From assembly GCA_022571255.1 (NCBI GenBank), contig JACZYD010000008.1:1-44217 (forward strand): DNA of 44,217 nucleotides. The letters run 5' to 3'. Positions 23,438-30,917 of this stretch are shown here, piece by piece. Every line of letters starts with the position of its first letter. Position 1 is the first letter of the stretch. Under the pieces are notes generated by a model. The model made no database searches. It had not been told where the DNA came from and saw only the letters and a program-made list of their open reading frames with translations. Source of the stretch: Bacteroidota bacterium. Lineage in GTDB: Bacteria; Bacteroidota; Rhodothermia; Rhodothermales; UBA10348. The position numbers and the translations under genes are program-made.

Positions 23438-23627
23438 CATCCGCAGTGCCTCCCGTGCTCGTCCTGCCGCCGGGCAGCGCACGCGCGCATTTCGGCGGCG
23501 CTGACGCCGTGATTCCCCATTCTTCGCGAATCGGCGCAAAAAGTACGTAGATACTCTTACCAGGAGCAGAGTGCTTACCCTCGCGCGTCTGACTGTTGCA
23601 GCAGCCGGACGATATCACTTTGAAGTA

Positions 23628-25574
23628 ATGGACCCCCTTTTTCTCCTTACATCTTCCCTTCTATTGCTGGTTTGTGCAGTAATTCCCGCCATCACACTGC
23701 GGAAAGGCAAAGGCAGATCGATTGACACGGAGCCGGTTGACGATTCAGAACTGTTGTCCGGTTTTCAGAGTGACGGTCATCCGTCAGAAGACGCGATCAC
23801 GCTCACCGTCAACGACGATTCGTCCGTGACATGGGTCGAACTCGGGCATGGAGTTGAGATTAATCAGTGTGCACTGTCCGAAGTCGCGACAACTCTTTTT
23901 GAACCGGAAGTCTGCGCAATCATCGCGAGACTGCACCGGGAATTACAACCGTTTCGATCCCGCCTGCTCGAAGCTCGTGTACTTCGACAGAAAACGTATG
24001 ACCGCGGCCTCCTTCCTGATTTTTTGGATGTAGACGAACATCCTGACTCGCACGGCGAGTGGAAGGTTGCCGAACTGCCGGATGACCTTCTGGACCGTCG
24101 GGTAGAAATCACGGGACCTGCCAGCGATGCAAAAATGGTCATCAATATGCTCAGCCGGGGCAAAGATGGACAGCGAGCTGACGCCGCGATGCTCGACCTG
24201 GAGGATTCAATGAAGCCCAGTTGGAGCAACGTGGCCAGCGCCATCGCCAACGTGCGCGACGCTGCGCGAGGCACCCTGACTTACACGAAACCAGCCGCCG
24301 GCAAAACTGCGGAAAAAATATATTCGCTCGACCCCGATGACATGCCGCTTCTTATGGTCCGAATGCGAGGGTTGCACCTGGAAGAGGTCAATATCCGCGT
24401 GGACGGTGAGAACGTCTCGGCTGGGCTACTGGACTTTGCACTGTGCGCGTATCACAGTGCCCATACGCTGATGGAGCAGGGTCGAACACCAAAATATTAT
24501 GTCCCCAAGGTCGAACATTATCTGGAAGCCAGGTGGTGGAACATATTATTCTCACTCACCGAGAATGAGATCGGGCTGTCTGAAGGGTCGATCCGGATGA
24601 CGCTCTTGATCGAAACTCTTCCGGCTGCTTTCCAGATGGAGGAGATTCTGTTTGAAACGCGAAAACATGCCGCCGGGCTCAATGGAGGTCGCTGGGATAA
24701 GATTTTCAGCGATATCAAGGTATTGAAAGAGCACCCGGATCGCATCATGGCCGATCGTGGCAGCATCGGAATGGATCGCCCATGGATGAAAAAATACGCA
24801 CTCCAACTGATACGGGTATGTCATCGCCATGGCGCATTTGCCATGGGTGGAATGGCAGCTTTTACCCCCGGAAGCACCGCAAAACTCAGGAAAGAGCAGA
24901 AAGCTCGCGTTGTTGCGGATAAGAAATTTGAGTCCTCCATAGGGCACGATGGATGCTGGGTATCCCATCCCTTTTTCATCGGACCTGCCCGAAAACCTTT
25001 TTCAAAAATGAACCAACTTGGCGTATCCCCTGATCTGGAGGATAATCCAGATCTGTTGCCAGATGCCACGGGCCCTGTTACGATGGAAGGGCTCCGAAAA
25101 AATGTCCGTGTCGGAATAGCATACCTGCATGCATGGAACCAGGATATCGGTTGTGTCGCATGGGACAACTTGATGGAGGACCTTGCAACACTTGAAATAT
25201 CCCGTGCGCAGACGTGGCAGTGGCTGCGGCACACCGTAACGCTCGAATCCGGTGAATATGTGACCCAAGAGCTGGTCGAGATTATTTTCGCAGAGGAACT
25301 GGCACGCATTGAATCAGAATTATTGAACGGTCGTTCAAAAATGTCTGAAGAAGAAATTTTCGCTCTCATTGATCCTTTTCGTGACGCAAGTTCCGACGCA
25401 TGTGCCCTGTATACCGACCCGGATTTCCGACCGTTCCTGACACTTCGCTCTGACGGTGCCCATTTAAACGCTACTGCAAGACGATTGAGTCTCACGGCAC
25501 GACCCGAGCACGTGCGACGCGGCCCCAAGACCAGATTTACGGTTCAGAATCACTCCGCCGCAAACCGTATTTGA
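23628..25574 (+). CDS. aceB: malate synthase A with N-terminal membrane anchor
   Basis: Condenses glyoxylate with acetyl-CoA to malate, the second step of the glyoxylate shunt. The catalytic part from about residue 75 is a normal malate synthase [85 protein letters not shown] and [10 protein letters not shown]. Ahead of it lies an extra stretch with a strong hydrophobic helix at residues 4-23 ([20 protein letters not shown]), followed by RKGKGR. The basic residues after the helix predict an N-out anchor with the enzyme in the cytoplasm. A GTG at 23571 with an AGGAG site five bases upstream is an alternative start that keeps the helix. At 648-667 residues it is clearly longer than the usual 530. 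aceA follows. Confidence 0.92.
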
Positions 25575-25623: not shown

Positions 25624-26931
25624 ATGGAATTATCGTTGAATGGCAAGAGCACTTCCAATGGACACGAAGCTGACTTACTGACACAGCTCTGGCAATCTTC
25701 GCCGCGCTGGAATAATGTCACGCGTAATTATGACGCAGCGTCGGTTCTGAAACTCCGAAATTCGTTTCCGATCTCTTATTCGATCGCCGATCGCGGCGCA
25801 CGAATACTCTGGGATCTTCTTCACGAAGAGGACTACGTGAACGCTTTGGGGGCACTCACGGGAAATCAGGCCATGCAGCAGGTCAAGGCCGGCCTGAAAG
25901 CGATTTATCTCAGCGGATGGCAGGTGGCTGCGGATGCCAATCTTTCCGGGACAATGTACCCCGATCAGAGCCTGTATCCGGCCAACAGCGTACCGGAGGT
26001 CGTGCGAAAAATCAACCAGACGCTTCTGCGTTCGGACCAGATTGAACACTCAGAAGGCCTGGTGACGAGAAACTGGATGGCACCCATCATAGCCGACGCG
26101 GAGGCCGGGTTCGGCGGATGTCTGAATGCCTATGAATTGATGCGCGCCATGATTGAAGCTGGCGCTGCAGGTGTTCACTTTGAAGACCAACTTGCATCGG
26201 AGAAAAAGTGCGGTCACCTCGGCGGCAAAGTGCTCGTTCCAACGAGTCAGTTCATTGACACCTTATCCGCGGCGCGCCTGGCGGCCGACGTAATGGGAGT
26301 CCCGACACTGCTTATCGCTCGAACCGATTCAGACAGCGCGACACTGATTACGAGCGATGTCGACGAACGGGATCACCCGTTTATTGATCGCAGCCGTCGT
26401 ACCCCGGAAGGATTTTATAGCGTATCGAATGGTCTTGATGCCGCCATCGCCCGAGGACTTGCATACGCTCCGTATGCAGATCTTATCTGGTGCGAGACGT
26501 CACATCCAGATCTCGACGAAGCGAAACAGTTCGCCGAAGCCATCCGGAATGAATATCCAGATCAGATGCTGGCATACAACTGTTCACCGTCGTTCAACTG
26601 GAAAGAAAAACTGGATGACAGGACCATAGCCAAATTCCAGCGCGAACTGGGTGCGATGGGATATACATTCCAGTTCGTAACACTGGCCGGTTTCCATGCC
26701 CTGAATCACAGCATGTTCGACCTGGCCAGAGACTATCGCCATCATGGAATGGCTGCCTATTCGCGTCTTCAGCAGGCTGAATTCGCCAGCGAGGAATTTG
26801 GTTATACAGCAACCCGGCACCAACGCGAAGTCGGAACAGGCTATTTCGACGTGATTCGCTCGGTCCTGACAGCGGGCCGCACGAGCACGAGCGCAATGGC
26901 CGGTTCGACCGAGACCGCACAGTTTCAATAA
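25624..26931 (+). CDS. aceA: isocitrate lyase
   Basis: Cleaves isocitrate to glyoxylate and succinate, the entry step of the glyoxylate shunt. The 435-residue length matches the bacterial type. The signature [14 protein letters not shown] is intact, with catalytic C196, and [29 protein letters not shown] and NCSPSFNWK follow in the expected order. It lies 49 bases downstream of malate synthase on the same strand, so the two are likely co-transcribed. The stop codon is inside a run of 23-24-bp direct repeats, so the last few residues (ETAQFQ) may be recently changed. Confidence 0.95.
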
Positions 26932-28175: not shown

Positions 28176-30917
28176 ATGGCCTCCTCTCCTGCCCCTCGAA
28201 AAGACCCCTTTGATGCCCGCGAAACCTTTGACACCGGGAGCGGCCCGGGGTATCTCTATCGTCTGGACAAGTTGAAGGAGCACGGGTTTGGCAACATTGA
28301 CCGGTTGCCGTATTCGATCAAAGTGCTTCTGGAATGTGCCCTTCGCAACTGCGACGATTTTCTGGTCACGCAGGATGACGTGAAAAAATTGGCATCGTAC
28401 GATCCGTCGGCCCCTGCCCGTGTTGAAATACCCTTTCTGCCGGCGCGGGTATTGCTTCAGGATTTTACAGGTGTCCCGGCCGTCGTGGACCTGGCGGCCA
28501 TGCGTTCTGCCATGGGACGACTCGGAGGAGATCCGGAAGAGATCAATCCACGCGTTCCCGTACACCTCGTGATTGATCACTCCGTTCAGGTAGACTCTTT
28601 TGGAACGCCGGACGCGATTATCATCAATGCGGACAAGGAGTTTCACCGAAATCGCGAACGGTACGAGTTTTTGCGCTGGGGAAAACAGGCCTTTGACAAT
28701 TTCTCTGTCGTTCCGCCGGCCAGCGGCATTTGCCATCAGGTCAATCTCGAATACATTGCGCGCTGTGTCTGGAGTAAAGAGGAAGATGACGGAATAAAAA
28801 CCTTTTATCCCGATACGCTGGTTGGAACGGACAGCCACACTACCATGATCGACGGTTTGGGCGTTGTAGGCTGGGGCGTAGGAGGTATCGAAGCTGAGGC
28901 TGTAATGCTCGGGCAGCCCGTCTATATGTTGATGCCGGAAGTGATCGGTTTCAAGCTGAAGGGTGCTTTGCCGGAAGGCGCTACGGCTACGGATCTTGTG
29001 CTTACCGTCACGCAAACGCTTCGCGAATTTGGCGTGGTCAGCAAGTTTGTCGAATTTTTCGGTCCGGGTCTCCGAGCAATGAGTATTCCTGACCGGGCAA
29101 CGATCGCCAATATGTCTCCTGAATATGGAGCCACGATGGGCTTCTTTCCTGTCGATGAGGAAACACTCGATTTTCTTTCCCGCACAGGGCGCTCCCCGGA
29201 ACTCGTCGAAATGGTCAAGCGGTATACGCAGATTCAGGGACTCTTCCGAACCGATGACTCGCCGGATCCTGAGTTTTTACATGTGGTGGAACTTGACATG
29301 TCTACGATCGCACCGAGCCTGGCCGGGCCCAAACGTCCCCAGGACCGGATCGCGCTGCCGGATATGCAGGAATCGTTCCAGACCGCACTCCGGACGGCGG
29401 CCGGACCTCAGGGATTTGGACTGTCGGCGGATGAACTGAAAAACGAGGTGGCCTACGCCGATCCTGACGGGCACACAGATTCGCTCACACACGGCGCCGT
29501 CGCGATCGCCGCAATCACGAGTTGCACCAACACAAGTAATCCGTCCGTAATGATTGGCGCCGGACTCGTCGCAAAAAGAGCGGTCGAATTCGGCCTGACC
29601 GTTCCCTCTTTTGTCAAGACCAGTCTTGCTCCGGGTTCAAAAGTTGTCAGAGACTATCTGGAAGAAGCTGGGCTGCAATATTATCTGAATAAAATTGGTT
29701 TCAATATCGTCGGGTTCGGCTGTACCACCTGTATCGGAAACTCGGGACCGCTGCCGGATGCCATGTCCGCCGCCGTGACGGATGGTGATCTGATCGTGGC
29801 CGGGGTATTGTCCGGCAATCGCAATTTTGAGGGGCGAATTCACCAGCAGGTCCAGGCCAATTACCTGGCATCCCCACCCCTGGTGGTCGCGTATGCCCTC
29901 GCCGGAACCGTGGATATCAACCTGGCAACCGACCCGCTGGGAACCGGCGCTGATGGAGAGCCCGTCTACCTGCGCGATCTCTGGCCATCAAGCGCCGAAG
30001 TAAGCGATCTGGTCACTCGCAGCGTGACGCCGGAGATGTTTGCCCGGGAGTATGACGGGATTGAAGACAGCAACGAAACGTGGAATGCAATCAAAATTCC
30101 GGAAGGATCGATTTATGAATGGAACAGCGCATCGACGTACATCCAGGAGCCCCCATTTTTCTTTGATCTGACACCGGAAACCCCGTCAATTTCGGCGATC
30201 CGGGGCGCCCGGGTCCTCGTCAAAGTCGGCGACTCCATCACCACCGATCATATTTCCCCCGCCGGTGCCATCGCGCCCGATTCTCCTGCGGCCGCTTATC
30301 TGAAAAGCAACGACATTGAGTATCCCGACTTCAATTCGTATGGTTCACGCCGTGGAAACCACGAAGTCATGATGCGCGGAACGTTTGCCAACATCCGCCT
30401 CAAAAATCGTTTGGTTCCGGGGACGGAAGGGGGGATCACGAAGTTTTTTCCAACCGGCGAGGTCATGAGCATATACGATGCAGGAATGGCGTATCAGGAA
30501 GCGGGCACGCCGCTGGTTGTGCTCGCCGGAGGCGATTATGGCATGGGATCGAGCCGAGACTGGGCCGCGAAAGGCACACTTCTGCTGGGCGTAAGGGCTG
30601 TCATTGCAAACAGTTTCGAAAGAATCCACCGGTCGAACCTGATCGGTATGGGTGTCTTGCCTCTCGAATATCTGGATGGCCAGACGGCAGACTCACTCGG
30701 GCTTGACGGCACGGAAACGTTCGATATCGATGTATTGAACAATGTTACGGCCGGCTCCATCATCGCCGTCCGTGCAAAACGTGAAGACGGTTTCCGTGTC
30801 GATTTCAATACTCAATCCCGGCTGGACACTCCGGTTGAAGTGGAATATTACCGGCACGGAGGAATTTTACACTTCGTCCTGCGAGACTTCCTGAATACCT
30901 CTCGGGTAGAGGCATAA
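28176..30917 (+). CDS. acnA: aconitate hydratase (AcnA type)
   Basis: Interconverts citrate and isocitrate in the TCA cycle and supplies isocitrate lyase. The 913-residue length fits the AcnA/IRP1 group. The [4Fe-4S] ligands are C450 in [11 protein letters not shown], and C516 and C519 in [13 protein letters not shown]. Other features are [15 protein letters not shown] and the swivel-domain motifs [47 protein letters not shown] and [19 protein letters not shown]. Start [13 protein letters not shown] fits the usual family N-terminus. It is separated from aceBA by the LOG and tRNA genes and probably has its own promoter. Confidence 0.96.

Follow-up and report, generated by a model that had tools for sequence, protein, structure and literature searches.

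A malate synthase A with a lineage-specific N-terminal tail and a predicted membrane helix in a Bacteroidota bacterium

The window, i.e., the whole 44,217-nucleotide stretch of a Bacteroidota genome (GCA_022571255.1) analyzed here, contains a gene whose product is best read as a soluble-type malate synthase A bearing a young, fast-evolving N-terminal tail. With moderate confidence, we consider it to be a normal malate synthase A whose tail was born within the lineage and is led, in this genome, by a membrane-inserting helix. That the protein is truly membrane-anchored, a 30-bp in-frame insertion in the young tail having converted a soluble enzyme into a membrane protein, is a more tentative proposal, which we hold possible rather than probable. 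The features on which the argument turns are the following:

23628–25574, forward strand: malate synthase A (aceB) open reading frame, 648 residues, starting at an ATG conserved with the sister genus
25624–26931, forward strand: isocitrate lyase (aceA), the next gene, after a 49-bp gap (Pfam ICL, E = 5e-103)
23637–23693, forward strand: hydrophobic helix, residues 4–22 (hydropathy 2.58 over 19 residues; AlphaFold helix at residues 3–22, low confidence)
23697–23822, forward strand: RKGKGR and a disordered acidic linker, residues 24–65 (codon usage; codon-position divergence from the sister-genus homologue L017; pLDDT mostly below 50)
about 23640–23669, forward strand: 30-bp in-frame segment missing from the sister-genus homologue (DNA/protein alignment with L017; gap placement approximate)
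23571–23627, forward strand: possible further N-terminal stretch from a GTG (AGGAG four bases upstream; weak coding signal)

Malate synthase A converts glyoxylate and acetyl-CoA to malate. The identity of the enzyme, as proposed in an earlier note on this DNA, was confirmed by its domains, its closest solved relative, and its fold. The frame is open from ATG 23628 to the stop codon at 25572–25574, and the protein matches Pfam MS_N, MS_TIM-barrel, and MS_C, all above their gathering scores. Its best solved relative is E. coli malate synthase A (3cuz, E = 4e-118), and the AlphaFold model (mean pLDDT 87.6) has 3cv2 and 3cuz as its best Foldseek matches (TM 0.91–0.92 on target). Residues R247, E329, D357, and D518, which we take to be the catalytic residues from the alignment to the E. 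coli enzyme (3cuz), occupy invariant columns in 34 homologues. The NCBIfam model TIGR01344 (malate_syn_A) also matches the protein (E = 5e-149), at 496.7 bits against an equivalog cut-off of 594.5; the sister-genus homologue, at 524.5 bits, likewise falls below this value. Isoform A rather than G is nonetheless clear from sequence and fold, the strict equivalog threshold alone failing. The protein shares with AceB of E. coli (3cuz) and B. anthracis (3cux) the three domains, the fold (TM 0.92), and the conserved motifs of the catalytic region; unlike them, it falls under the equivalog cut-off and has an N-terminus longer by about 65 residues, which includes a predicted membrane helix, and a short disordered C-terminal tail. 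This C-terminus (residues 628–648, window 25500–25571) is predicted to be disordered; by tblastn, the sister-genus homologue aligns as far as residue 626. No other malate synthase was found in this genome. The gene is probably in one operon with aceA, and an aconitase is encoded at 28176–30917.

The hydrophobic segment reported in the earlier note ahead of the catalytic domain was recovered. Its mean Kyte–Doolittle hydropathy over residues 4–22 is 2.58, compared with a maximum of 1.26 elsewhere in the protein, and this value is attained by just 0.4% of open 40-codon stretches, in any frame, in the window. The conceptual protein does contain this helix, and one of such strength would not ordinarily arise by chance. 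The AlphaFold model has low confidence at residues 1–62 (pLDDT mostly below 50) and 628–648, the helix predicted at 3–22 standing free of the rest; the folded part begins at about residue 66, with pLDDT above 90 from about residue 70. The helix is followed by RKGKGR and then by a disordered linker of roughly 45 residues, and such a hydrophobic stretch, about 20 residues long and flanked by positive charge, is what is expected of a single-pass anchored enzyme. According to the positive-inside rule, the positive flank of a membrane helix stays inside the cell. Since positive residues follow the helix and only an aspartate precedes it, an N-out/C-in topology with the enzyme in the cytoplasm is predicted, which agrees with the polarity proposed earlier. 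The tail is thus likely, in this genome, to serve as a single-pass anchor for an enzyme on the cytoplasmic side.

The distribution of the tail is narrow. The malate synthase query matched 47 of the 245 genomes of the class, that of the window included, and the match reached into the tail only in the window's genome (G000) and in G002 (Bacteroidetes bacterium isolate B33T1B8), which belongs to a sister genus; the extension is absent from the other 45. In addition, 80 loci were taken from a species-level genome collection and a subset of N-termini was chosen for alignment. In this subset, the proteins of the other relatives begin at about residues 45–78 (window numbering), and no membrane segment was seen in any of them. 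A beginning near residue 75 in close relatives, named earlier as evidence against the anchor, was found for every examined relative outside the sister genus. Upstream read-through of some relatives (L010/L032, L047, and L093) gives hydrophobic runs outside genes, a reminder that T-rich leader DNA can look like a helix when translated. One match, that of L022 from residue 7, was considered as a shared extension and rejected, as that protein likely starts at MGTATPP and the sequence before it is read-through. Genome G001, of the same genus as the window and 74% complete, gave no match, nor did nearly all other genomes of the window's family; a scan of viral contigs with the N-terminal part found nothing.

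The homologue of the sister genus (L017 and L003, which are the same record sequence) is 75% identical to the window protein over 613 residues. It resembles the window in that its extension begins from the same ATG (MDPL...), its N-terminus being MDPLVRAVLPAITPQNRR, and in that isocitrate lyase adjoins; its upstream neighbor differs, being a sigma-70 region 4 protein on the reverse strand. It aligns with the window tail from residue 14 on, in frame and ungapped, and it lacks the 30-bp segment, whose 10 residues supply about half of the helix. The highest N-terminal hydropathy over 19 residues is only 0.64 in the sister-genus protein, and removal of these 10 residues from the window protein lowers its best N-terminal value from 2.58 to 0.78. 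No membrane anchor is therefore predicted in the sister genus. The anchor is thus absent from the sister genus and from all other orthologues examined, and the alignment suggested earlier, made to see whether relatives conserve the helix, gave a negative answer: the sister genus is without the 10 helix residues and the others are without the extension. The nearest relative having the front piece without the anchor, and the other relatives found having no front piece, the anchor is probably a recent, local peculiarity and not the mark of a conserved membrane enzyme. A conserved membrane role is not supported by an anchor that occurs in only one of the genomes searched and is missing from the nearest relative; likewise, nothing supports the suggestion that placement beside membrane dehydrogenases or lipid-derived acetyl-CoA was a selected role. 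Judged from the alignment, the 30-bp difference may be an insertion in the window's lineage or a deletion in the sister genus, the tail being present in no outgroup. A second copy of the segment was sought across the window's genome and none was found.

Whether the helix is part of the protein depends on the translation start, which we infer to be ATG 23628. This is the sole start codon common to both genomes, and ATG-GAC-CCN-CTT is conserved. It has no Shine–Dalgarno sequence, but such a sequence is missing from most genes in the window, so its absence says little. Over 23628–23828, the codon-usage log-odds is +13.7 in this frame, compared with −15.9 and −34.4 in the other forward frames and a shuffle mean of −33; most of this signal comes from the linker (+12.9), with neutral usage in the helix codons (+0.8). 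In the comparison of the tail with L017 (23670–23825), 60 of 104 first and second codon positions are identical, compared with 13 of 52 third positions (Fisher P = 1.6e-4), the pattern of coding DNA. Codon usage and this third-position-biased divergence indicate in-frame translation of the linker region.

The alternative that fares best, although we regard it as unlikely, is that the real start lies past the helix, at GTG 23826 or TTG 23754, in which case the product would be an ordinary soluble malate synthase of about 582 residues and the helix an untranslated leader. Such a start would agree with the relatives, which begin at equivalent residues (about 45–78), and with the readiness with which T-rich leader DNA mimics a helix; in addition, blastn nucleotide similarity to the sister genus begins at 23829, and that genus also has a GTG nearby (L017:3169). 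However, none of the start codons of that area is common to both genomes: the sister genus has no start codon at the position of TTG 23754 or of GTG 23826, its nearest being the GTG two codons on, and neither of these two codons has a ribosome-binding sequence in the window. Moreover, 23667–23825 is coding-like in both codon usage and codon-position divergence. Less likely still is initiation at GTG 23571, which would add 19 residues, two of them arginines, before the helix; the anchor would stay and its topology would become ambiguous. The AGGAG and a weakly coding signal over 23571–23627 (+4.5) speak for it, but the sister genus has CTG at this position and no in-frame ATG, GTG, or TTG upstream of its ATG, and the lack of Shine–Dalgarno sequences before most genes here takes weight from the AGGAG. 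The earlier statement that both possible starts keep the helix therefore holds for ATG 23628 and GTG 23571, but not for TTG 23754 and GTG 23826, which are in frame downstream and would remove it.

Even if the helix is translated from ATG 23628, it might be a cleavable secretion signal and the enzyme exported, which we judge very improbable. IPA at residues 19–21 is a conceivable signal peptidase site, but with the ATG start there is no positive n-region, the positive residues come directly after the helix, and the substrate acetyl-CoA is cytoplasmic. Both the secretion and the lipoprotein readings were rejected, the n-region carrying no charge and there being no lipobox. An artefact of assembly or sequencing is a hardly credible source of the 30-bp difference: although the genome is a draft in 205 contigs, the segment is in frame, unique in the genome, and not a simple repeat.

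Returning to the preferred reading, that of a tail born within the lineage, the DNA upstream of malate synthase offers a possible origin. In most relatives examined (L018, L033, L074, L028, and L059 among them), a divergent gene of about 500 residues with HTH_3 and IrrE/M78-like domains lies upstream of malate synthase. A palindrome, GCGAAnnTTCGC, occurs upstream of the gene in 68 of 97 upstream regions (e.g., L037, L044, L074, L099, and L100), compared with 0 for two scrambled controls; it often runs into TTGACA and is found across Rhodothermia, Flavobacteria, Acidobacteriota, and others. We consider it a probable operator of a RamB/PrpR-like glyoxylate operon. In Paracoccus, the gene for RamB lies immediately ahead of the glyoxylate-cycle operon, in the opposite orientation, and the protein binds in front of malate synthase (PMC10370305); PrpR/RamB regulators are described in mycobacteria (PMC6765138). 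The relatives resemble these systems of the ScfR family (PMC10370305; PMC6765138) in having a divergent regulator upstream of malate synthase and an inverted-repeat box between the two. They differ in that the relatives' genomes that carry the regulator have no match to PF09856 (ScfRs), which was sought in 18 genomes of the class, carriers of regulators included, and matched in control genomes. The window's genome differs in lacking the regulator.

Regulators were found solely by homology to the gene of L018. Among the 18 genomes, a homologue is absent from G000, G002, and G003, and G055 has just a marginal match in the HTH region. In the window, no operator was found near malate synthase and total matches are not above chance; no exact copy of the AGCGAAnnTTCGCT palindrome is present in the window's genome. 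The divergent regulator with an inverted-repeat operator, as in a ScfR/RamB-regulated glyoxylate operon, is thus not seen here. The sister genus is like the window in this respect, both the regulator and the upstream operator being missing, and GCGAAnnTTCGC is absent from the DNA upstream of the G002 gene (L098). That this loss and the new tail occur together, a correlation only, in two genomes, suggests that the extension arose when an old promoter region was remodeled and the freed upstream DNA became coding. Some other members of the class are without the palindrome, yet also without the tail.

The following course of events can be proposed. Loss of a RamB-like regulator and its operator might have left the upstream region free to change, and this DNA might then have become coding, giving rise in the lineage to a tail of about 65 residues. 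A 30-bp insertion might subsequently have created the helix, unless the sister genus deleted these 30 bp. The helix would span the inner membrane, its short N-terminal end facing out and RKGKGR facing in, and the flexible linker of about 45 residues would hold the enzyme in the cytoplasm. In this organism, the enzyme could well be attached to the membrane; any benefit of anchoring may be nil. In the full-text literature searched, the coverage of which is incomplete, no case was found of a malate synthase from bacteria anchored by a transmembrane segment. If the helix is translated and inserted, this would be a clean case in which an in-frame change of 30 bp, within a leader that had newly become coding, gave a membrane anchor to a soluble enzyme of central metabolism, alongside loss of the regulator usual in relatives; this would not by itself show a metabolic benefit. 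The two genomes, one carrying the 30 bp and the other lacking them, would then offer a natural comparison for an anchored malate synthase.

Two further observations were made on the genes themselves. The window's genome and that of the sister genus keep malate synthase and isocitrate lyase without the regulator, and G008 and G010 keep the regulator without malate synthase. In L065 and L071 (Bacteriovoracaceae/Bacteriovorax), the malate synthase open frames are about 980–1000 residues long and may represent fusions to another enzyme, for example isocitrate lyase.
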